Assembly (NCBI RefSeq): GCF_001636055.1
Contig: NZ_CP011789.1
Coordinates: 620,001 to 684,000, forward strand
DNA length: 64,000 nt
Source of the DNA: Pseudomonas putida
Lineage (GTDB): Bacteria; Pseudomonadota; Gammaproteobacteria; Pseudomonadales; Pseudomonadaceae
Direction: 5' to 3'
In this document: positions 3,798 through 64,000 of the stretch, one piece after another
Numbering within the stretch: position 1 is the first letter of the stretch
Layout: every line of letters begins with the position of its first letter
Position numbers and translations under genes: made by a program
Notes under the pieces: generated by a model
Told to the model about the DNA's origin: nothing
What the model saw: the letters and a program-made list of their open reading frames with translations, nothing else
Database searches by the model: none

Positions 3798-5660
3798 ATG
3801 CCCCATCGCTGCTCGATCGACCAGGCCGTCGACCAGGTCCTGGCCCGCCTCCCGGCCCATATCCACATGGGCCTGCCCCTGGGCCTGGGCAAACCCAATG
3901 CCTTCGTCAACGCCCTCTATGCCCGCATCCGCAGCCTGCCCGAGCGGCGCCTGACAATCTACACCGCCCTCAGCCTGGGCAGACCGCCGCTGGGTGACGG
4001 CCTGCAGCGGCGCTTCCTCGAACCCTTCGTCGAGCGCGTCTTCGCCGACTACGAAGAGCTCGACTACCTCGCCGACCTGCGCAACGACACCCTCCCGGCC
4101 AACATCCGTGTCGAGCAGTTCTTCATGCAGCCCGGTTCGCTGCTGCACAGCGAGACCGCCCAGCAGGACTACGTCAGTAGCAACTACAGCCACGCTGCGC
4201 GCGATATCAACGCCAAGGGCTTGAACCTCATCGCCCAGATCGTTGCCGCTACGCCCGAGCGTCCGGATCACCTGAGCCTAGCCTGCAACCCCGACATTAC
4301 CCTCGACCTGCTGCCAATGATCGCCAAACGCCGTGCCGCAGGCGAAACCATCCTCATGCTCGGCCAGGTGCATGCCGAACTGCCCTACATGCCGGGCGAC
4401 GCCGAACTGCCTGCACAGGATTTCGACCTGCTGATCGATACCCCCGAGCAGCGTCGACTGTTCTGCACCCCGAACATGCCGGTCACCCTCCAGGACCACT
4501 GCATCGGCCTGTACGCCAGCACCCTGGTGCGTGATGGCGGCACCCTGCAGATCGGCATCGGCGCCATGGGCGATGCCGTGGCCGCAGCGCTGCTCGCGCG
4601 CCAGGACGACAACGACGCCTACCGCGCGTTGCTCGAAGACCTGGACCTGAACCCCTGGAAAACGCTGATCGAGCGTGAGGGTGGTATGGATGCCTTCGCC
4701 CAAGGGCTCTACGGCTGCAGCGAGATGTTCGTCAACGGCCTGCTGGCGCTGGCCGAAGCAGGCGTGGTGCGGCGCCCGGCCGACGAGCAGGGCGTGCTGG
4801 TGCATGGCGGGTTCTTTCTCGGCACCGCAGATTTCTACCAGCGCTTGCGGCAGATGCCTCTTGAGCAGCGCAAACGCTTCGCCATGACCGCCATCAGCTT
4901 CATTAACGAGCTGTATGGCGACGAAGCACTCAAGCGTCGCCAGCGCCGCGATGCGCGCTTCGTCAACACGGTGTTTGGCATGACCCTGCTCGGTGCCGGG
5001 GTGGCCGATCAGCTGGAAGATGGCCGGGTGCTCAGCGGTGTGGGCGGGCAGTACAACTTCGTCGCCCAGGGCCATGCACTGGAGGGCGGGCGCTCGATCC
5101 TGCTGCTGCGTAGCTGGCGCGAGGCGGGTGGCGAGGTGACGTCGAATGTGTTCTGGCAGTATGGACATTGCACCATTCCCCGGCACCTGCGTGACATCGT
5201 GATCACCGAATACGGCATCGCCGATCTGCGTGGGCAGACCGACAGCGAGGTGATCGCACGGTTGCTGGCAATCAGTGACTCACGTTTTCAGAAACCTTTG
5301 ATGGAGCAGGCCAAGAAGGCCGGCAAGCTGGCGCGGGACTTCGAGCTATCGGCACGCTTCACCGACAACACGCCCGAGCGCCTGGAAGCGATCAGGGCGC
5401 GGTATGCGGGGTTGTTCCCCGAGTACCCGCTGGGCAGCGACTTCACGCCTGAGGAGCAGGACCTGCTGCGGGCGCTGAACTGGCTCAAGAGCAAGTTCAA
5501 GCTGAGCGAGGTGCTGGAGCTGGGCAAGGCGGCGCTGGATGCGCCAGAACCTCAGGCCTATACGGCGCATCTGGTGCGGATGGGGCTGAGTGAACCGCAG
5601 GGGCTGAAGGAGGAGCTGTACCAGCGGTTGCTGCTGGCGGGGTTGCAGGCTGCAAAATAA
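3798..5660 (+). CDS. Acetyl-CoA hydrolase/CoA-transferase family protein
   Basis: The 620-residue protein belongs to the acetyl-CoA hydrolase/transferase (Cat1) family. These enzymes move CoA between short acyl groups through a glutamyl-CoA intermediate, or hydrolyse the thioester. The C-terminal half has the conserved ITEYGIADLRGQ block and GGQYNFVAQGHAL, typical of the CoA-transferase domain. At 620 residues it is longer than the usual 430-500, with extra sequence between the two halves. The start is ATG at 3798 with AGGAG at 3787-3791. No signal peptide is seen, so it should be cytosolic. The natural acyl substrate cannot be told from the sequence. Confidence 0.85.
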   Translation: MPHRCSIDQAVDQVLARLPAHIHMGLPLGLGKPNAFVNALYARIRSLPERRLTIYTALSLGRPPLGDGLQRRFLEPFVERVFADYEELDYLADLRNDTLPANIRVEQFFMQPGSLLHSETAQQDYVSSNYSHAARDINAKGLNLIAQIVAATPERPDHLSLACNPDITLDLLPMIAKRRAAGETILMLGQVHAELPYMPGDAELPAQDFDLLIDTPEQRRLFCTPNMPVTLQDHCIGLYASTLVRDGGTLQIGIGAMGDAVAAALLARQDDNDAYRALLEDLDLNPWKTLIEREGGMDAFAQGLYGCSEMFVNGLLALAEAGVVRRPADEQGVLVHGGFFLGTADFYQRLRQMPLEQRKRFAMTAISFINELYGDEALKRRQRRDARFVNTVFGMTLLGAGVADQLEDGRVLSGVGGQYNFVAQGHALEGGRSILLLRSWREAGGEVTSNVFWQYGHCTIPRHLRDIVITEYGIADLRGQTDSEVIARLLAISDSRFQKPLMEQAKKAGKLARDFELSARFTDNTPERLEAIRARYAGLFPEYPLGSDFTPEEQDLLRALNWLKSKFKLSEVLELGKAALDAPEPQAYTAHLVRMGLSEPQGLKEELYQRLLLAGLQAAK

Positions 5661-5680
5661 ACGCTCGGACATGCTGGCCC

Positions 5681-5710
5681 CTGTGGGAGCGGGTAAACCC
5701 GCTCCCACAG
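5681..5710. repeat. Perfect inverted repeat (REP variant) between convergent genes
   Basis: CTGTGGGAGCGGG and CCCGCTCCCACAG form a 13-bp perfect stem with a TAAA loop. It lies between the ends of the CoA-transferase gene and xpt, and could act as a transcription barrier in both directions. Confidence 0.85.
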
Positions 5711-5726
5711 AGCTCGCGTAGCGGCC

Positions 5727-8382
<2,656 letters not shown>

Positions 8383-8558
8383 GCTAGAAACCGGGAGTAA
8401 CCAGAAAATAGCCGCGCATTCTAGCAGGCATGGGTCGGTTATGGCGCGACCGTCTGACAGTGTGATGCAGCGCACCATTCAGATTTGCGGGCGTTGCGAC
8501 TTTCGCGCAGGATGCACGGCAAAATCCGTCGAGATGCGGGGCAGGGAACGCCACATAT

Positions 8559-8577
8559 AAAAGTGAGAATCATTTCC
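8559..8577 (+). promoter_or_regulatory. Fur-box-like sequence
   Basis: AAAAGTGAGAATCATTTCC matches 13 of 19 positions of the Fur consensus GATAATGATAATCATTATC, by my count. It lies about 60 bp before the start of the GGDEF-EAL gene. Iron control is only an inference. Confidence 0.35.
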
Positions 8578-8637
8578 ACTTGTCGGTTAGGATACGGCAC
8601 ATCCTCGGTCACACTGTTCGAGCCCTAAGGAGCCCGC

Positions 8638-10302
8638 TTGTCCACGCCCGTCGAACCGTTGCGCTTGCTGCTGTTGGCCGATGAGCCGGAATGGGCTGCG
8701 TTGCTGCGCGAATGTGTCCAGCCGCTGGCTGGCAGCGCGGTACTGCTGACTGCGCCGAACTGGGAGGCGGTGGACAGCCTGTTCGTTCACGATCGCCAAG
8801 CCGTGGTACTGGCCACGCCCGACCTGCAGCCGACACCCGGACGCTGCGACCTGCCGACCATCCTGCTGCTGGAGCACGAGCCCGAGACGCCTCCGGTGGG
8901 CGTAAGTGACTGGCTGGTGCGTGGGCAACTGAGCAGTGACGCGCTGCGCCGCTCGTTGCGTCATGTGCGTGAACGCGGTGTGCTGGTCGCCACCTTGCAA
9001 CGCCTGGCCGAGCAGGACCCGCTCACCGGCATCGCCAATCGCCAGGGCTTCCAGGCACTGCTCAGCGCACGCCTGGCGGAGAACGCAGGCCGCGGCCTGG
9101 CCCTCGGTCACCTGGACCTGGACAACTTCCGTCACGTCAACGACGCCCTGGGGCACCAGGGCGGTGATCGCCTGATCCTGCAGGTGGTCAACCGACTCAA
9201 GCAGCAGCTGGAGGCCGGTGATCAGTTGGCGCGCCTGGGCAGCGATGAGTTCGCGCTGCTGATCGACACCCGCCGCGACCCCAGCCGCGCCGAGCGCACC
9301 GCCGAGCGTATCGTCGAAGCCCTGGCCGAGCCGTACTGGATCGATGGCGAAAGCCTGCTGCTTGGTTGCAGCCTGGGCCTGGCCCATGCCCGTGCGCAAG
9401 CGGGCGCCGATCCGTTGATGTGGCATGCGCACATCGCCATGCGCCAGGCCAAGGGCAGCCAAGGCTGCACGTATTACGTGTTCAACGAGCGAATAAACAG
9501 CAACGCCCGCAGCCTCGCCGACCTGGAAAGCGAGCTGCGTCGGGCCCTGCGTCGTGACGAGCTGGAGCTGCACTACCAGCCGCGCTTGAACCTCAAGGAC
9601 GGCACCATCGTCGGCCTCGAGGCACTGGTGCGCTGGCGGCATGCCGAGCGTGGCCTGCTGCCGCCGAGCGAGTTCGTGCCGCTGGCCGAGCAGAGCGGGC
9701 TGATCGTACCGCTGGGCTACTGGGTGATCTCCCGCGCCCTGCGTGACATGCAGGCCCTGGGCGAGCACGGCCTGGCGCCGCTGCACATGGCGGTGAACCT
9801 GAGCTTCCGCCAGTTCCAGGACAGCCAGCTGTTGGCGACCCTGAGCCGGCTGATCGTCGAACACGGCGTCGATGCGCGTTGGCTGGAGTTCGAGCTGACC
9901 GAGACCGCGGTGATGCGCCGCAACGAAGTGGTGCGCCAGACCATGGATGCACTGGGGCGCCTGGGTGTGCGTTTCTCGCTGGATGACTTTGGCACTGGTT
10001 TTTCGTCGTTCGTGCACCTGAACAGCCTGCCCATCACCTTGCTCAAGGTCGATCGCAGCTTCGTCGCCGGCATGGAACAGCGCGAAGAAAACCGCAAGCT
10101 GGTGCACGCGATGATCAACCTGGCGCACAACCTCAACCTGGAAGTGGTGGCCGAAGGGGTGGAAAGCGATGAGCAACTGGGTCTGCTGCGTGATTTCGGT
10201 TGCGACCAGGTGCAAGGGTTCCTGGTGAGCCGGCCGCTGCCGATCGATGAGCTGATCGTCTACCTGTTCCAGGCGGCCAAGCCGCAGTTGGTGAGTGTTT
10301 AG
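8638..10302 (+). CDS. GGDEF-EAL cyclic-di-GMP protein with degenerate receiver-like N-terminus
   Basis: The 554-residue protein has a receiver-like N-terminal region (about 1-115, without a clear phospho-acceptor Asp), a diguanylate cyclase domain (about 125-285) and an EAL phosphodiesterase domain (about 305-545). The cyclase signature reads GSDEF (residues 201-205) instead of GGDEF, and no RxxD inhibitory site precedes it. The EAL domain keeps EALVRW (Glu328), FELTET, DDFGTGFSS and VAEGVES. I infer that it mainly degrades c-di-GMP, with the GGDEF half regulatory or weak. No membrane segment is seen. The start is TTG at 8638 with AAGGAG at 8627-8632. Confidence 0.92.
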   Translation: MSTPVEPLRLLLLADEPEWAALLRECVQPLAGSAVLLTAPNWEAVDSLFVHDRQAVVLATPDLQPTPGRCDLPTILLLEHEPETPPVGVSDWLVRGQLSSDALRRSLRHVRERGVLVATLQRLAEQDPLTGIANRQGFQALLSARLAENAGRGLALGHLDLDNFRHVNDALGHQGGDRLILQVVNRLKQQLEAGDQLARLGSDEFALLIDTRRDPSRAERTAERIVEALAEPYWIDGESLLLGCSLGLAHARAQAGADPLMWHAHIAMRQAKGSQGCTYYVFNERINSNARSLADLESELRRALRRDELELHYQPRLNLKDGTIVGLEALVRWRHAERGLLPPSEFVPLAEQSGLIVPLGYWVISRALRDMQALGEHGLAPLHMAVNLSFRQFQDSQLLATLSRLIVEHGVDARWLEFELTETAVMRRNEVVRQTMDALGRLGVRFSLDDFGTGFSSFVHLNSLPITLLKVDRSFVAGMEQREENRKLVHAMINLAHNLNLEVVAEGVESDEQLGLLRDFGCDQVQGFLVSRPLPIDELIVYLFQAAKPQLVSV

Positions 10303-10308
10303 CCGGTA

Positions 10309-10328
10309 GCGGCCCGCGATAGGGCCGC
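10309..10328. terminator. Hairpin between convergent genes
   Basis: GCGGCCC and GGGCCGC pair around a 6-base loop, just after the stop of the GGDEF-EAL gene and just before the end of the MATE gene. There is no T-tract on the plus strand. Confidence 0.5.
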
Positions 10329-10336
10329 CACTGATT

Positions 10337-11719
10337 TCAGGCCGAAACCGCCGCCCCCACGGCCGCCTTGCCCAGCAACCGCTTCATCCGCCATTCGAAT
10401 GCCAGCGTCAGCGCCACCGCCGCACACGCCAGCCCCAGCGCCAAGCCCCACCAGATACCCACCGCACCCCCGCCGAGCGTGAAGGCGAACACCCAGGCGC
10501 ATGGCGCGCCCACCAGCCAGTAGCACAGCAGACCGATCACGAACGTGGTCTTGGCGTCCTTCAGGCCGCGGATCGAGCCCATGGCGATGGTCTGCGTGCC
10601 GTCGAACAGCTCGAACCAGGCGGCCACCATCACCAGCTGCACGGCGAGCGCGAAGATGGCGGCGAACGCCGGATCATTGCGGTCGACCAGCAGCCCCACG
10701 AAGGTCTCCGGGAACAGCCAGAACAGCACCGCGAAGGTGAACATCACCACCGCGCCCAGGCCGATCCCGATGCGCCCGGCGCTGCGCGCGGCCAGCAGGT
10801 TGCCTGCGCCGTAGTACAGCCCGACTCGCATGGTCACCGCATAGGACAGCCCGGTCGGCACCATGAACGCTGCCGAAATGATCGGCAGGGCGATCTGGTG
10901 GGCGGCCAGCTCGGTATCGCCCAGTACACCCATGCACAGGGCGGCGAAGGCGAACAAGCCGACTTCCACGATGTAGGTACCGCCGATCGGCAGGCCCAGC
11001 CGCCACAACTCGCGAAGTGCATCGAGCGATGGGTGTGACAGGCCCTTGCGCAGCGGATAGGCGTCGTATGCACGGTGCCAGTGGATGTATAGAGCCAGGG
11101 CGATGGCCATGCCCAGCGACACCACGGCCGTGACCAGGCCGATGCCCATGAGGCCCAGCTTGGGCAGGCCGAACATGCCTTCGATCAACGCGTGGTTGAA
11201 CAGGTAGTTGAGTACCGTGCCCACCAGGCTGATGACCATCACCGGGGTCGAATGGCCCAGTGCGCTGGTGAAGCCGCGCAGGGCCATGAAGGTCAGGTAG
11301 CCGGGCAGCGCCAGGGGTAGCAGGGTAAGGAACTGCATGGCCATGTCGACGTTGTCGGGACGCTGGCCGAACAGCAGCAGCAAAGGTTTGAGGTTCCACA
11401 ACACCAGGGCCGCGCCCAGCGCCAGGCCCCAGGCCAACCACAGGCCGTTCTGCGCCAGGCGCGTGGCACCGGCGATGTCACCTGCGCCTTTGCGGAAGGC
11501 CACCAGGGTGCCGACCGCGGCGATCACGCCCAGGCAGAAGATCGACACGAACGAATAGCTCGCCGCGCCCAGGCCGCCCCCTGCCAGCGCCTGTGGACTG
11601 ATGCGCGCCATCATCAGGGTGTCGGTGAGCACCATCAGCATGTGCGCCAATTGCGAGGCGACCAGGGGGCCGGCCAGGCGCAGCAGAGCCTTGAGTTCGG
11701 TGGTGGGCGCGACATGCAT
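10337..11719 (-). CDS. MATE-family multidrug exporter (NorM-like)
   Basis: The 460-residue polytopic membrane protein has about 12 hydrophobic segments and the two-fold MATE arrangement (LAGPLVASQLAHMLMVLTDTLM near the N-terminus, LPIGGTYIVEVGLFAFAAL in the second half). This family exports cationic drugs in exchange for Na+ or H+. The start ATG at 11719 has AAGGA 8 bp upstream; the longer frame to 11815 reads through the promoter region. It is divergent from a LysR gene, and a 17-bp palindrome lies between them, so LysR control is likely. The substrate is not deducible. Confidence 0.93.
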   Translation of the reverse strand: MHVAPTTELKALLRLAGPLVASQLAHMLMVLTDTLMMARISPQALAGGGLGAASYSFVSIFCLGVIAAVGTLVAFRKGAGDIAGATRLAQNGLWLAWGLALGAALVLWNLKPLLLLFGQRPDNVDMAMQFLTLLPLALPGYLTFMALRGFTSALGHSTPVMVISLVGTVLNYLFNHALIEGMFGLPKLGLMGIGLVTAVVSLGMAIALALYIHWHRAYDAYPLRKGLSHPSLDALRELWRLGLPIGGTYIVEVGLFAFAALCMGVLGDTELAAHQIALPIISAAFMVPTGLSYAVTMRVGLYYGAGNLLAARSAGRIGIGLGAVVMFTFAVLFWLFPETFVGLLVDRNDPAFAAIFALAVQLVMVAAWFELFDGTQTIAMGSIRGLKDAKTTFVIGLLCYWLVGAPCAWVFAFTLGGGAVGIWWGLALGLACAAVALTLAFEWRMKRLLGKAAVGAAVSA

Positions 11720-49397: not shown

Positions 49398-49498
49398 GCT
49401 AAGGCTGTTTTTCACTATCTACCGCAAGAAATGCAATGTTTTTAATCTGTGCCCATGCAGTCGAGACAACAACCCAACCCATCCGAAGGAGCACGACC

Positions 49499-50128
49499 AT
49501 GAGCCAATTCACCTACAACCGCCTGAACAAAGACGACGCCGCCGTACTGCTGGTCGACCACCAGGCAGGCCTGCTGTCGCTGGTCCGCGACATCGAACCG
49601 GACAAGTTCAAGAACAACGTGCTGGCGCTGGCCGACCTGGCCAAGTTCTTCAACCTGCCGACCATCCTCACCACCAGCTTCGAGCAAGGCCCCAACGGCC
49701 CGCTGGTGCCAGAGCTCAAGGCGCTGTTCCCGGACGCGCCCTACATCGCCCGCCCTGGCCAGATCAATGCCTGGGACAACGAAGATTTCGTCAAGGCGGT
49801 GAAGGCCACCGGCAAGAAGCAGCTGATCATCGCCGGTGTCGTGACTGAAGTGTGCGTGGCCTTCCCGGCACTGTCGGCCCTGGCCGAGGACTTCGAAGTG
49901 TTCGTGGTGGCCGATGCCTCCGGCACCTTCAACGAGATGACCCGCGATGCCGCCTGGCGCCGGATGGAAGCTGCCGGTGCGCAACTGATGACCTGGTTCG
50001 GCGTGGCCTGCGAGCTGCACCGCGACTGGCGCAACGACGTCGAAGGCCTGGCCGCGCTGTGCTCCAACCACATCCCCGACTACCGCAACCTGATCACCAG
50101 CTACAACGCCCTCACCGCAGGCAAGTGA
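49499..50128 (+). CDS. YcaC-family cysteine hydrolase, copy 1
   Basis: The 209-residue protein is of the isochorismatase-like (YcaC) family. The catalytic triad is Asp in LLVDHQAG, Lys in KQLIIAG and Cys in VVTEVCVAFPAL. It is cytoplasmic; substrate unknown. A ribosome site AAGGAG precedes the ATG at 49499. The protein is residue-for-residue the same as the one at 53823-54452; I count eight base differences, all silent. Part of the promoter region is shared too. Confidence 0.93.
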   Translation: MSQFTYNRLNKDDAAVLLVDHQAGLLSLVRDIEPDKFKNNVLALADLAKFFNLPTILTTSFEQGPNGPLVPELKALFPDAPYIARPGQINAWDNEDFVKAVKATGKKQLIIAGVVTEVCVAFPALSALAEDFEVFVVADASGTFNEMTRDAAWRRMEAAGAQLMTWFGVACELHRDWRNDVEGLAALCSNHIPDYRNLITSYNALTAGK

Positions 50129-50186
50129 GCCGCCCCGCCAGGCGCCCTCTGCGGCGCCTGGTCAACTTTTGCTCAGGTATTCAGCA

Positions 50187-53710: not shown

Positions 53711-53822
53711 GCTACAGACAATTTTTGCAGTCTACCGCATCAAAGGTGATGTTTTTAATCTGTACTCATCAACGCGCAACACCCACTTACCGCACATCAA
53801 AGACACATTGGGAGTACAGACC

Positions 53823-54452
53823 ATGAGCCAATTCACCTACAACCGCCTGAACAAAGACGATGCCGCCGTACTGCTGGTCGACCACCAGGCAGGCCTGCTG
53901 TCGCTGGTCCGTGACATCGAGCCGGACAAGTTCAAGAACAACGTGCTGGCGCTGGCCGACCTGGCCAAGTTCTTCAACCTGCCGACCATCCTCACCACCA
54001 GCTTCGAGCAAGGCCCGAACGGCCCGCTGGTGCCAGAGCTCAAGGCGCTGTTCCCGGACGCGCCCTACATCGCCCGCCCTGGCCAGATCAATGCCTGGGA
54101 CAACGAAGATTTCGTCAAGGCGGTGAAGGCCACCGGCAAGAAGCAGCTGATCATCGCCGGTGTGGTGACAGAAGTGTGCGTGGCCTTCCCGGCACTGTCG
54201 GCCCTGGCCGAGGACTTCGAAGTGTTCGTGGTGGCCGATGCCTCCGGCACCTTCAACGAGATGACCCGCGATGCCGCCTGGCGCCGGATGGAAGCTGCCG
54301 GTGCGCAACTGATGACCTGGTTCGGCGTGGCCTGCGAGCTGCACCGTGACTGGCGCAACGACGTCGAAGGCCTGGCCGCGCTGTGCTCCAACCACATCCC
54401 CGACTACCGCAACCTGATCACCAGCTACAACGCCCTCACCGCGGGCAAGTGA
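53823..54452 (+). CDS. YcaC-family cysteine hydrolase, copy 2
   Basis: This 209-residue protein is the same as copy 1 at every residue (catalytic Asp, Lys and Cys in LLVDHQAG, KQLIIAG and VVTEVCVAFPAL). The start ATG is at 53823. It is followed by an alpha/beta hydrolase gene on the same strand, whereas copy 1 is followed by the ABM and amidohydrolase genes. Confidence 0.93.
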   Translation: MSQFTYNRLNKDDAAVLLVDHQAGLLSLVRDIEPDKFKNNVLALADLAKFFNLPTILTTSFEQGPNGPLVPELKALFPDAPYIARPGQINAWDNEDFVKAVKATGKKQLIIAGVVTEVCVAFPALSALAEDFEVFVVADASGTFNEMTRDAAWRRMEAAGAQLMTWFGVACELHRDWRNDVEGLAALCSNHIPDYRNLITSYNALTAGK

Positions 54453-54567
54453 CCCAGCCAATGGCCGGTCGGTACGCCTCGTGAGCGACCGGCCAGCCGC
54501 GCGATGGAATGTTCCTCGCGCCCCGCACTCAAGATCCAGACCTACCCGACTTTCAGGAGATTCCGAC

Positions 54568-59766: not shown

Positions 59767-61019
59767 TCAACTGCCGGGGCGGTATTGCAGTGCCTCAGCC
59801 AGATGGGGGCGGTCGATGTGATCGGCTTGTTCAAGGTCGGCCAGGGTGCGGGCGACCTTGAGCAGACGGTGAGCGGCGCGCAACGAAAGGTTGAGTCGCT
59901 CGCACGCGCCCTCCAGCCATGACTGGTCGGCGGCTTTCAGGTCGCAATGCTTGCGCAGGCCTGGCATATCGAGAAACGCGTTGGCACAACCCTGGCGGCG
60001 CTGTTGCCGCTCGCGGGTCTGGGCGACCTGGGCGGCGACGCTGGCGCTGGTCTCGCCACTGGGCTGGTGGCTGAGGGTGGTGCTTTCGCGTGCGACGGTC
60101 AGGTGCAGGTCGATGCGGTCGAGCAGCGGGCCCGAGAGCTTGTTGCGGTAGCGCTGGATCTGCTCAGGGCTGCACCGGCAGCGGGCTGCCGGGTCGCCCA
60201 GGTAGCCGCAGGGGCAGGGGTTCATCGCCGCTACAAGCTGAAAGCGCGCAGGAAAGCGCACCCGGTCCCGGGCCCGTGAAATCACGATCTCGCCAGACTC
60301 CAGCGGCTCGCGCAGCACCTCCAGCACACGCCGTTCGAACTCGGGCAGTTCGTCGAGAAACAGCACCCCATGATGGGCCAGGGTGATTTCCCCAGGCTGT
60401 GGCCGACTGCCGCCACCGACCAGTGCCGGGCCCGACGCGCTGTGATGAGGATGGCGAAACGGCCGCTGTGGCCAGCAGTCGATCGGTGCCTTGCCGCTGA
60501 CCGACTGGATGGCCGCAACCTCCAGCGCCTCGTGCTCGTCCAGCGGCGGCAGCAAGCCCGGCAGGCGGCTGGCAAGCAAGGTCTTGCCAGTGCCGGGTGG
60601 CCCGGTAAACAGCAGATTGTGCGCCCCCGCCGCCGCGACCAGAAGGGCGCGCTTGGCCGCGATCTGCCCCTGTACTTCGCTGAGGTCCGGATAGGGGCGC
60701 GCGCGTAGCATCAAGCCGTTGGCGGCATAGGCTGGCAGCGGTGCCTGGCCATTGAGGTGCGCCACCAGCTCCTGCAGATGCCCGACCGCATACACCACCA
60801 GCCCACTGGCCAAACTCGCCTCCTCGGCATTCTCCCGCGGCACCACTAGTGCCCGCCCGGCCTCCCGCGCCGCCAGCGCCGCTGGCAGCACGCCCTGCAC
60901 TGGGCGCAATGCCCCGGATAGCGCCAACTCGCCCAGGCATTCGAAATCGACCAAGGTCGCCACCGGCACCTGGCCGTTGGCGGCGAGGATGCCCAGGGCG
61001 ATGGCAAGGTCGTAGCGGC
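59767..61019 (-). pseudogene. comM: comM, 5' part removed by insertion
   Basis: The remaining frame encodes about 416 residues of a Mg-chelatase-like AAA+ ATPase, the ComM branch-migration helicase for natural transformation. It keeps Walker A FTGPPGTGKTLLA, Walker B GVLFLDELPEF, the MNPCPCGYLGD zinc-like segment and the C-terminal domain. A full ComM has about 497 residues, so about 81 N-terminal ones are missing. The frame is homologous from RYDLAIALGIL and meets foreign sequence at 61019/61020; a stop codon follows at 61030-61032. No native start remains. A GTG at 60969 could start only a truncated protein. Confidence 0.9.
61015..61019. repeat. Presumed 5-bp target duplication at transposon end
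   Basis: The comM bases GCGGC lie directly before the TGT end of the element. Tn7-like elements duplicate 5 bp, but the other end is outside the window, so this cannot be confirmed here. Confidence 0.35.
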
Positions 61020-61041
61020 TGTCTACGGGTTAGTTTGCAAT

Positions 61042-61190
61042 CATGGACGCTCTATAACTCCTTGTTTTCCATCCTGAAATAGTTAGTGCTACGTCCATGC
61101 CTTAGAGCTTGCTGTGCGGTTTCAAATATCGGTGTACGTCCATGCTAACCGCGTGTCTGCGAGAGAGAAATTCTAGTTACGGACGTACAC
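61042..61190. repeat. Four copies of a CATGGACGTA-like motif near element end
   Basis: The copies are CATGGACGC at 61042 (plus), ACGTCCATGC at 61091 (minus orientation), TGTACGTCCATGC at 61133 (minus) and TACGGACGTACAC at 61178 (plus). They lie in the noncoding gap between the comM break and the first element gene, and are candidate TnsB/TniA-binding sites. Confidence 0.6.
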
Positions 61191-61307
61191 AGAACCATGA
61201 GCGGTGGACAGAAAAATATCGCATGACAGATTTTCTAGGACCACGCAGTGAGGTATCTTTAGGGTAACAATTTCTGAATACAACCATATCTAGGGACTGG
61301 AGTCTGA

Positions 61308-63149
61308 ATGCATATTACAAGGGTACAAATAGAAGAAGGTTTTTTGGATGGCCTGGATGTAAGCTTCACTCCGGGGTTGAATGCAATAATAGGTGCGCGT
61401 GGAACTGGCAAGACTTCATTGATTGAGATAATTAGGTTTTGCCTTGACGTCACTAGTACCTCGGCAGAAACCACGAGAAAAAGTAAGGATCATGCGCTGT
61501 CGATACTTGGATCTGGGCAAGTGACAGTTACTATAGCAGATAATGAGCAACTAATATTAGTGACTCGAACTGCTATGGATGATGTTCCCAGAGCGACATC
61601 GAATTATCGTAAACCTGTAATTTTTTCGCAGACTGAAATCGAAACCGTTGGGCTCGAGGCTACAGGCAGGCTTAGGTTATTGGATGGTTTTGTAAAATTA
61701 AAGCAAGATACCGATCTGGACGAACGAGATATCATAAGTGAGTGCCGCAACCTGACGCGGCAGGTAGAATCCTGCCGCAGAGAAATTGATGAGCTCGAGC
61801 AAACGCAAAAAGGGCTGCCTAGTCTCCATGAGGAGCTAAAGAAAATAGCCTATGCAGAGCAGGAGGTATCTAAAAGCTCCCTCGCTTTGCAGGAGAAAGC
61901 CCAGCATCTAAACCAGAGATCTAACGAAATCTCAAACATCAGTGTCGTTCTCCAACAGGTGAACAGGCTCAGGGATGGCGTGGCTGGATGGAGTCATGAG
62001 GTAAAAAAGAGTGCCGAGTATTCACTGCCCGATGACTTAGATTCTGCGCTAACGGCGTCCATAGCACCGTCAGCATTACCGTTAGTGCAAAAAATAAAAG
62101 AAATGAGAAAGCGGATGAATGCAGAGCTTGGGAACGTAATCGCTACATATCATGAATTAGACGCCATCGTAAAAAAATGCACCGCGGATAAAATAGCACA
62201 GGAAGATGTTGCGAGGCAGTTGAGGATCGAGATTGAGGGTGTGCAATCTGGTTCAGGCGCAGTTCTAAGAAAAGGGCAAGAGCTTAGAGAGAATATCGCT
62301 AAGCTGGAGTCTATAACTGCCTACCTGACTCAGCGCAAAGATATGCTGAAGGCTCTGATAGATAGAAGAGCAATCGCCTTGGATCAGCTTGACACAATAC
62401 GCTCTGCTCGTTTCCAAGCCAGGCAAGAGGCAGCGAATTGGCTGAATAAGTTAGTGGGCCCAAATATAAGAGTTTCGATTTATAGAAACGGGCAAGTAAA
62501 AAAATTCTCAGCTTCTATTTCTGAGAGTTTGAGGGGGAGTGGGCTGCGGTACGCTGAAGTTGCTGACGATATCGCTGAAAATTTAAGCCCGAGGGCGCTG
62601 ATGGAAGCAGTTGATAATTTTGATACTGAGGCCATAGCTGACGCAGCTAATATTACATTGGATCGCGCTTCGAGAATCCTCTCGCATCTGAAGGGCTGCG
62701 ATTTGGGGGAGCTGTGTACTATAAATATTGAAGACGAAGTTTCGCTTCAGCTTTTAGATGGTACCGACTATAAAGATATATCGGAGCTATCTACTGGGCA
62801 GCGGTGTACAGTTGTATTGCCCCTCATCCTTTCCCACATGAACCGAATGTTGATTGTAGATCAGCCTGAAGATCATATTGACAACGCGTTTATTGCAGAA
62901 ACACTGATAAAGGTTATCGTTTCAAGAGGGGGGAAGGGGCAAATAATATTTTCTACTCATAATCCCAACATTCCGGTATTAGGGAATGCTGATATGGTAC
63001 TACACCTAGGATCTGACGGTCGTCGTGGATTTAGGATGTCAGCTGGACCGCTTCAAGAGCAAGATATAGTATCGGCTATCAGTACCGTTATGGAAGGAGG
63101 CGCAGCAGCCTTCTCCAAACGTGCGGAATTCTACAACGGGAATTCTTGA
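61308..63149 (+). CDS. SMC/Rad50-like ATPase of a putative two-gene system
   Basis: The 613-residue protein has an N-terminal ATPase half with Walker A GARGTGKTS (29-37), a coiled-coil middle (about 125-365) and a C-terminal half with ABC signature LSTGQR (494-499), Walker B LIVDQPED (Asp518, Glu521), D-loop HIDN and H-loop STHNPNIP. The order and DQPED motif resemble the ATPase part of TrlF/Ppl and RecF/Rad50-type proteins; no PHP, TOPRIM or nuclease domain is seen. The ATG at 61308 has GGAG 5 bp upstream. Only one base separates it from the next gene. Codon use is AT-rich and foreign. A defence role is inferred from the mobile setting. Confidence 0.85.
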   Translation: MHITRVQIEEGFLDGLDVSFTPGLNAIIGARGTGKTSLIEIIRFCLDVTSTSAETTRKSKDHALSILGSGQVTVTIADNEQLILVTRTAMDDVPRATSNYRKPVIFSQTEIETVGLEATGRLRLLDGFVKLKQDTDLDERDIISECRNLTRQVESCRREIDELEQTQKGLPSLHEELKKIAYAEQEVSKSSLALQEKAQHLNQRSNEISNISVVLQQVNRLRDGVAGWSHEVKKSAEYSLPDDLDSALTASIAPSALPLVQKIKEMRKRMNAELGNVIATYHELDAIVKKCTADKIAQEDVARQLRIEIEGVQSGSGAVLRKGQELRENIAKLESITAYLTQRKDMLKALIDRRAIALDQLDTIRSARFQARQEAANWLNKLVGPNIRVSIYRNGQVKKFSASISESLRGSGLRYAEVADDIAENLSPRALMEAVDNFDTEAIADAANITLDRASRILSHLKGCDLGELCTINIEDEVSLQLLDGTDYKDISELSTGQRCTVVLPLILSHMNRMLIVDQPEDHIDNAFIAETLIKVIVSRGGKGQIIFSTHNPNIPVLGNADMVLHLGSDGRRGFRMSAGPLQEQDIVSAISTVMEGGAAAFSKRAEFYNGNS

Positions 63150-63150
63150 G

Positions 63151-64000
63151 ATGACTCGTGAAGAAGCCCTTTATGCGATAGCTAACGGAACATCACATAG
63201 CAGGTTTACCGCTTTAGGGGTTTTGGAACGAGTTGCCCTCCCTACAGATATAGAGTTGCTGATGAAGCTTCAGACGACCGAGGCTGACTTGTACGTTAAA
63301 AAACGTATCGAGAGAGTCGTATCGAAACTTCACAAAAATTTGCCTGAGAAAACTGAAGTAGATGACGATATAGTACCTGCTGAGGTGAAAAGAAAGGTAA
63401 GAGCGGACGCAATTGAGTGGGTGGCAGGACTATTGCTCCATGAGATAGGTTCAAAGCTAGGGCTTTTGGCGAGCGAAATTTCACAGGATGTTCCAAATTT
63501 TGAAAGCTCCAACTCAATGCGACGAATTGAACAGCTGCAGGATACATTCGATGGAATTGAGCAGTTAAAAAAGGCAACCTCATCTCCTAAACCAATAGAA
63601 ATGGATCTTTCCGAGTTCATTCGTGATTCGGTTGAAGTGGAGCGAATTGGTAGAGATGTGGAGGCGTCCTATGTTGGGATTTCACCACTTATTATATTCT
63701 GCGACCGAGGTTTATTAGGCCTTGCGTTGTGCAATGGTATAAAAAATGCCATGGAGGCTGCAATGTCAGTGCGTTCTGAGGTTCGTGCTCCGATGATTGT
63801 GGTTAGCTGGGGGCAGACCGACAAAGACAACTGGATAACAATTATTGACAATGGTCCTGGGTTACCTAGTAGCTCAGCTAGATCGTTTGTTCTTGGAGAG
63901 TCTTCTAAGTCTGGGCATTTAGGCTTTGGTCTCGGAATTGCCAGGCAGGCAATTGAAACACTTCACGGCTCTGTCGAACTCCGAAACTCTGGGGCTGATG
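63151..64000 (+). CDS. HEAT-like/GHKL ATPase (histidine-kinase-like) partner, 3' end outside window
   Basis: The frame is open from ATG 63151 to the window end (283 codons). Residues about 1-65 look like HEAT-type helical repeats (ALGVLERVALPTDIELLMKL, YVKKRIERVVSKL). An H-box-like segment follows (LLLHEIGSKLGLLASEI, His97), then a GHKL ATPase domain with N-box NGIKNAMEA (Asn199), D-box DNGPGLP (Asp233) and G2 loop SGHLGFGLGIARQAIE (255-270). There is no transmembrane or sensor domain. It could be a soluble histidine kinase or a MORC/MutL-like ATPase. It begins one base after the SMC-like gene and must be co-translated with it. Confidence 0.82.
   Translation, partial: MTREEALYAIANGTSHSRFTALGVLERVALPTDIELLMKLQTTEADLYVKKRIERVVSKLHKNLPEKTEVDDDIVPAEVKRKVRADAIEWVAGLLLHEIGSKLGLLASEISQDVPNFESSNSMRRIEQLQDTFDGIEQLKKATSSPKPIEMDLSEFIRDSVEVERIGRDVEASYVGISPLIIFCDRGLLGLALCNGIKNAMEAAMSVRSEVRAPMIVVSWGQTDKDNWITIIDNGPGLPSSSARSFVLGESSKSGHLGFGLGIARQAIETLHGSVELRNSGAD

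Follow-up and report, generated by a model that had tools for sequence, protein, structure and literature searches.

A candidate immune phosphorelay of three genes carried by a comM element in Pseudomonas putida

We describe here three genes found at the end of a 64,000-nucleotide stretch of Pseudomonas putida (assembly GCF_001636055.1, contig NZ_CP011789.1, positions 620,001–684,000, forward strand), which we call the window (G000:C1:620001-684000). They are carried by an element inserted in the gene comM. The sequence beyond the window was also read, and positions past 64000 are given in window-equivalent numbering. The genes, which we call the trio, are all on the + strand in the order ATPase, histidine kinase and REC-kinase (a receiver domain fused to a kinase domain); the third is wholly past the end of the window. 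The trio is probably a compact, horizontally mobile system directed against phages or mobile elements, by which the infected cell would be arrested or killed; we infer this defence role from its genomic context. An infection-sensing growth-arrest system with this wiring of ATPase, His-Asp relay and REC-fused kinase is, in our judgement, somewhat more probable than its negation.

The initial annotation, made from the letters alone, described two adjacent genes and suspected further subunits past the end of the window. Both open reading frames (ORFs) are present where they had been placed, one base apart, and the suspected subunit does exist: gene 3 starts with TTG and overlaps the end of gene 2 by four bases. 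The idea of a two-gene unit has to be given up: these are the genes of a three-gene His-Asp phosphorelay, with a REC-fused kinase as output.

Judged from its sequence, the product of gene 1 is a TrlF-like SMC/ABC ATPase which has no PHP domain. It passes the Pfam cut-offs for AAA_21, AAA_23 and AAA_15 and has a central coiled coil; the Walker A, signature and Walker B motifs of an SMC-type ATPase, already pointed out in the initial annotation, are seen both in profile scans and in residue conservation. The kinship with TrlF and Ppl proposed there is also borne out. The NCBIfam TrlF model is matched with 263.4 bits from position 290 to 943 of its 944, which is the whole ATPase part, below the cut-off of 350. 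The match to Ppl is partial, with 108 bits in NCBIfam and 80 bits in PADLOC. No PHP family was found in the Pfam scan, and the TrlF match begins only at model position 289–290. In PADLOC the protein also matches LmuB (74 bits) and AriA (43 bits), each over just parts of the ATPase; a search of solved structures by sequence gave general ABC, Rad50 and AriA matches, the last of them weak, and a few coiled-coil chains. In a tree, 28 ATPases from trios are found on one side of a 100/100 branch and 15 TrlF proteins on the other. The ATPase family has 1069 protein clusters at E ≤ 1e-20 among 7997 candidates scored, a number which may include ATPases outside trios.

The product of gene 2 seems to be a genuine histidine kinase of the HK853 type. 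It had been described as a soluble protein with HEAT-like repeats, a histidine-kinase H-box and a GHKL ATPase domain: the helical HEAT-like N-terminus (residues 1–63) and the kinase domains are indeed present, a DHp domain with H97 and a CA domain, but a generic GHKL label does not seem to fit. The customary hydropathy threshold for a membrane segment is 1.6. The highest 19-residue values are 1.33 for gene 1, 1.38 for gene 3 and 1.69 for gene 2; since the last one is just above the threshold but falls inside the modelled CA domain (residues 175–193), all three proteins are taken as soluble. The Pfam scan matched no DNA-binding domain in the trio, which together with solubility favours a cytoplasmic, non-transcriptional relay.

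Gene 3 codes for a REC domain (D8, D53, T90, K125) fused to a kinase domain (K209, E219, D340, N345, D358). It matches the Pfam family TCAD9 (PF19974) with 60.1 bits, above the cut-off of 40, and is just below the cut-off for APH (21.6 against 23.2 bits). In Foldseek APH(3')-Ia chains rank first; in the fold comparison metabolite and peptide kinases do just as well, within about 1 Z unit. From the modelled fold and the catalytic residues it is a kinase of the APH/choline-kinase fold, whose substrate is not deducible from the fold alone. The solved-structure search by sequence gave REC matches, and PADLOC gave partial REC matches alone (PDC-M60B 37 bits, PDC-M60C 23 bits). A PNP domain is absent: REC and TCAD9/APH are all that the Pfam scan and the fold comparison show.

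Conserved co-occurrence, which the initial annotation would count as support for its claim, is found. One scan of GTDB genomes gave 57 loci, 43 of which have a gene-3 profile score above 100 bits and are considered strong. In 37 of these 43 the three genes are adjacent, on one strand and in the same order; among them the ATPase or the REC-kinase is split over two ORFs in L011, L017 and L027, and the kinase score is weak (65 bits) in L047. Six loci do not have this arrangement: L023 and L024, which come from one strain and are broken, L025 and L028, which are fragments, L029 and L039. The remaining 14 loci match only weakly and have no trio. Two of the loci have a peculiar arrangement. In L029 (positions 6526–10428), from a gammaproteobacterial metagenome-assembled genome (MAG), a HATPase_c_3 protein precedes the REC-kinase and replaces both ATPase and histidine kinase; the REC domain of this REC-kinase appears degenerate by eye, and the arrangement may be an alternative wiring of the same effector. 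In L049 (positions 4294–11558), from an Anaerolineales MAG, several REC-like proteins, identified by eye, are found around a distant relative of the REC-kinase, together with a 1107-residue protein with weak similarity to the kinase profile.

Residue conservation was counted over 34 complete sets, which are 33 relatives and the trio of the window. Identical in all of them are K35, S495, G497, Q498, D518, E521 and H551 of the ATPase; H97, N199, D233, G235, G237, G258 and G260 of the histidine kinase; and D53, K125, H338, D340, N345 and D358 of the REC-kinase. The phosphoryl-acceptor sites H97 and D53 are thus kept throughout, as are the support residues K125 and T or S at position 90. A few other positions vary: T36 of the ATPase is S in three sets, E98 of the kinase differs in two, and in the REC-kinase T90 is S in three, E219 is D in three, K209 is R in L026 and D8 is missing in one. 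The pairwise protein distances of the three genes correlate with values of 0.86–0.88, and none of 2000 permutations was as high for any pair.

The trio is found in at least five phyla: the ATPase tree has rows from Pseudomonadota, Campylobacterota, Acidobacteriota, Chloroflexota and Actinomycetota. Phytobacter falls within the Pseudomonas rows, Enterobacter is next to Agrobacterium and Erwinia next to a Campylobacteraceae MAG, a pattern which points to transfer of the ATPase between distant hosts. Several mobile carriers have been detected. Among 72,556 plasmid records 47 match, 36 of them from Piscirickettsia. Of the six plasmids inspected, annotation and gene order show the trio in five; one of these has VapBC genes on either side of it, and in others genes for replication, partition or a relaxase lie some kilobases away at most. 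The sixth, a Piscirickettsia salmonis plasmid (L067), has a short histidine kinase and a REC-kinase, with no annotated ATPase. Of the eight viral-contig loci two match strongly, and the trio is present in each of them. One is apparently the same locus as L006, in whose vicinity there are tail-fibre and UmuD-like genes; the other has replication- and repressor-type genes, as judged by eye. In Rheinheimera (L012:561-6047) TnsA-, TnsB-, TniB- and TniQ-type genes are found directly 5' of the trio, apparently a Tn7-like element with the trio as cargo. In L014 the genes ahead of the trio include a relaxase and a coupling protein, as on conjugative DNA, and in L046 a phage-integrase protein is upstream of it. 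A single-sequence tblastn search of 50,697 phage records gave no match, and the two genes for kinase and REC-kinase from the Phytobacter relative had no DNA match in E. coli genomes.

Some neighbourhoods of the trio point to defence islands. We scanned with PADLOC, at E ≤ 1e-20, 369 neighbour ORFs of 41 gene-3 loci, 36 of which have the trio. Three batches gave 44, 179 and 2 matching families; a control of 285 random chromosomal ORFs gave 3 and 7, including mad2, mad3 and one REase_II. The neighbour rows include type I, II, IIG and III restriction, CBASS cyclase and phospholipase, DRT and SoFic, as well as dCTPase, ZorC, DrmMII, mad3, AriAB and a candidate system. ZorD, DpdE, DrmD and GajB are helicase rows in which many models fall on few proteins, at least two of these in L023. 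Single-protein checks placed a type III restriction gene at 48 bases from the L008 trio; in L035 and L036 restriction genes of types I and IIG are close to it. The counts are of families and not of proteins, the models are redundant and the control comes mostly from the genus of the window, so that we take the neighbourhood as support and not as a rate.

None of the Pfam, PADLOC and NCBIfam libraries scanned has a model for the whole unit; the profile scans agree on this point with the initial annotation, which recognised no named system. In the open-licence papers searched we found no published description of the trio, which may nevertheless have been mentioned before. A legend of the DefensePredictor paper (PMC13092281) names HATPase and REC as domains of systems that are predicted but not validated. 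Several known systems are partly similar. In TrlF and Ppl a PHP domain is fused to an SMC-type ATPase; the ATPase of the trio aligns along the ATPase part of the first and partly with the second, but it has no PHP domain, remains under the TrlF cut-off and has its own branch in the tree, and the output of the trio would be a phosphorelay with a kinase. Lamassu LmuB, PARIS AriA and other defence systems anchored by SMC/OLD-type ATPases also have an ABC ATPase as likely sensor. The trio differs from them: their matches cover parts of its ATPase, no nuclease partner was seen, and the ATPase adjoins a kinase cascade. The sensor would then be of a type common to TrlF/Ppl and, more distantly, Lamassu and PARIS (for PARIS, an extract of PMC12839542). 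With two-component systems of the HK853/RR468 type the trio has in common the DHp-CA kinase fold and the canonical REC residues; it differs by having no DNA-binding output, no clear membrane segment and an ATPase gene upstream. TCAD9 is described in a legend of PMC10910872 as associated with vWA-MoxR-VMAP systems. Among the effectors associated with vWA, the relevant part of PMC7159879 has an APH-like kinase, possibly acting on small molecules, and names no histidine kinase. The TCAD9 domain is common to these systems and gene 3, but in the trio REC is fused to it and a histidine kinase is alongside; no vWA, MoxR or VMAP gene was found by the Pfam scan of the trio and the four other genes of the comM element.

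A more far-reaching scheme may be proposed with less confidence, and we consider that it has somewhat less than an even chance of being right: a widespread immune phosphorelay with an SMC/TrlF-like ATPase as sensor, a soluble histidine kinase as transmitter and a REC-fused metabolite or peptide kinase as executioner, which would give immunity by phosphorylating an essential component of the cell under direct His-Asp control with no transcription. In the growth-arrest system which we prefer, and by comparison with Ppl and PARIS AriA, the ATPase would recognise infection, in the likeliest case through an unusual nucleic-acid structure or a phage protein. Binding or hydrolysis of ATP might then alter the way in which it holds the histidine kinase at the HEAT-like N-terminus. 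The kinase, whose residues and fold are those required, would autophosphorylate on H97, and the phosphoryl group would go on to D53 in the REC domain. Phosphorylated REC could release or align the fused APH/choline-kinase-fold domain, which would phosphorylate a small molecule, a peptide or another essential substrate, and growth would stop.

Several observations weigh against a defence system of this kind. Phage protection, toxicity and phosphotransfer are all predictions from sequence and context. The trio is rare: only four of 149 genomes of the genus match, including that of the window, and one of the four is broken; in a sample of the phylum, with a handful of candidates scored per genome, the only match among 398 is the genome of the window itself. 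The strongest repeated neighbour rows (ZorD, DpdE, DrmD) are due at least partly to a single helicase in L023, whose trio is broken, and five of the 41 loci scanned have no trio. When 20 large neighbours were scanned singly, 11 matched no family at E ≤ 1e-20, and for another two the matches were to transposition or RecD models alone. Since the control is from the chromosome and largely from the genus of the window, it does not distinguish defence genes from island genes of any kind. L029, L039 and the Piscirickettsia plasmid keep gene 3 without gene 1, so that the ATPase may be dispensable in some cases. Finally, maintenance or competition of mobile elements would yield the same pattern: the relay would sense rival plasmids or the loss of its carrier instead of phage, and the kinase would arrest the cell. 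Carriage by plasmids, with VapBC or replication, partition and relaxase genes nearby, by prophage-type DNA and by the self-contained comM element agrees with this possibility, which overlaps with the anti-phage one. The restriction and CBASS-type neighbours point instead to anti-phage islands, and no antitoxin-like partner is seen in the trio; we consider maintenance or competition unlikely.

The other explanations are less probable. His-Asp relays are usually stress sensors and SMC-like ATPases sense DNA ends, so that the trio might be a host switch responding to DNA damage, temperature or envelope stress, with the kinase tuning metabolism. In Photorhabdus trlF belongs to a temperature-restriction locus, from which the NCBIfam TrlF model presumably takes its name; however, in the part of that study available its authors found no trlF mutations and consider that it possibly has no role (PMC7554251). 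A sporadic distribution, the transfer between distant hosts seen in the ATPase tree and many mobile carriers are unlike a core stress response, and we hold this role to be improbable. An antibiotic-resistance operon, in which the APH-fold domain would phosphorylate an aminoglycoside-like antibiotic under control of the ATPase and the histidine kinase, is suggested by the Foldseek ranking and the near-threshold APH score; the equal match of metabolite and peptide kinases speaks against it, and we know of no resistance operon with a REC fusion and an SMC ATPase. Its probability appears to us very small indeed. Hardly more credible is that the trio is a Detocs subtype, already covered by that name. 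Detocs has two REC proteins, one of them a lone REC (DtcB). It is presented in an excerpt of PMC11249213 as a three-gene defensive two-component family, and its best-described form has a PNP effector (PMC11249213; for PNP, a passage of PMC10952713). A histidine kinase and REC in one operon and a REC-fused enzymatic effector in place of a DNA-binding output follow the Detocs logic. The trio has instead a TCAD9/APH-fold kinase, only one REC protein and an additional SMC/ABC ATPase, and the partial REC matches of gene 3 are all that PADLOC gives for it. No lone REC gene was found in the comM element or between the three genes in the 37 loci, the flanks of the other loci not having been searched. 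These features differ: it is by its domain make-up, compared with the published description, that the trio is set apart from Detocs. An infection-sensing growth-arrest system remains the interpretation we prefer.

Table 1. Features of the comM region of P. putida, in window-equivalent positions
Feature	Position	Strand	Size	Remarks
Interrupted comM, larger downstream part	59767–61019	-		ORF 59767–60969 and flank alignments
comM element	61020–71235 (G000:C1:681020-691235; in the window 61020–64000)		about 10,216 bp	ends within about ±2 bases
Gene 1, SMC/ABC-type ATPase, proposed sensor	61308–63149	+	613 amino acids	
Gene 2, histidine kinase	63151–64038 (in the window 63151–64000)	+	295 amino acids	starts one base after gene 1
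Gene 3, REC + TCAD9/APH-fold kinase, proposed effector	64035–65444 (L002:8035-9444)	+	469 amino acids	
Four element genes	65612–71095 (L002:9612-15095)	-	163, 711, 574 and 423 amino acids	longest ORF; after gene 3
comM N-terminal part	about 71236–71470			past the element; flank alignments

The comM element, whose coordinates are given in Table 1, was correctly recognised in the initial annotation. Both flanks align to an unbroken comM in all four relatives examined; the junction is a single base in two of them and at most six bases in the other two, which gives the bounds of the insertion. Its G+C content is 45.8%, against 63.4% in the window and 68.8% in the left comM flank. The three-gene operon is its only cargo; the remaining genes are the four element genes. 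The Pfam family Phage_integrase (cut-off 27.1 bits) is not matched by the 163-residue protein; the 711-residue protein is far under the cut-off (11.6), the 574-residue one is over it (27.9) and the 423-residue one just under it (27.0). The element has recombinase-like proteins together with a fourth, small one, and no family name is given to it. Models named after Gamma-Mobile-Trio (GMT) exist in NCBIfam, and this identity was considered for the element because of its recombinase trio; no GMT-named model is found among the NCBIfam rows of the element genes, so we call it just a multi-recombinase comM element. AbaR-like transposition was rejected as well: the four genes have no Pfam match to a DDE transposase domain. 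No tRNA was found in the 54 kb scanned for an attachment site. Promoter-like sites are 3 (7.2 expected) and terminator-like sites 4 (3.3 expected). Words of the type ACGTCCATG are seen by eye near both ends of the element, and the left end has two copies 11 bases long.

Elsewhere in the window an isochorismatase-like gene, identified by eye, is present in two copies (49488–50134 and 53811–54459) with 98.2% identity over 649 bases. The copies enclose an amidohydrolase-like gene and a LysR-type regulator, also identified by eye; we read them as a recent duplication.

The trio joins two lines which are usually separate: infection-sensing SMC/ABC ATPases and two-component signalling. The ATPase family is large and the trio is present in several phyla, yet no library model scanned covers the whole unit. 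If our interpretation is true, a complete His-Asp relay would lead from an ATPase to a toxic enzyme within the cytoplasm. The invariant residues would make each step of the relay testable by single substitutions. It would also suggest that sensors of the TrlF type can be plugged into different outputs, either a PHP domain in cis or a phosphorelay in trans.
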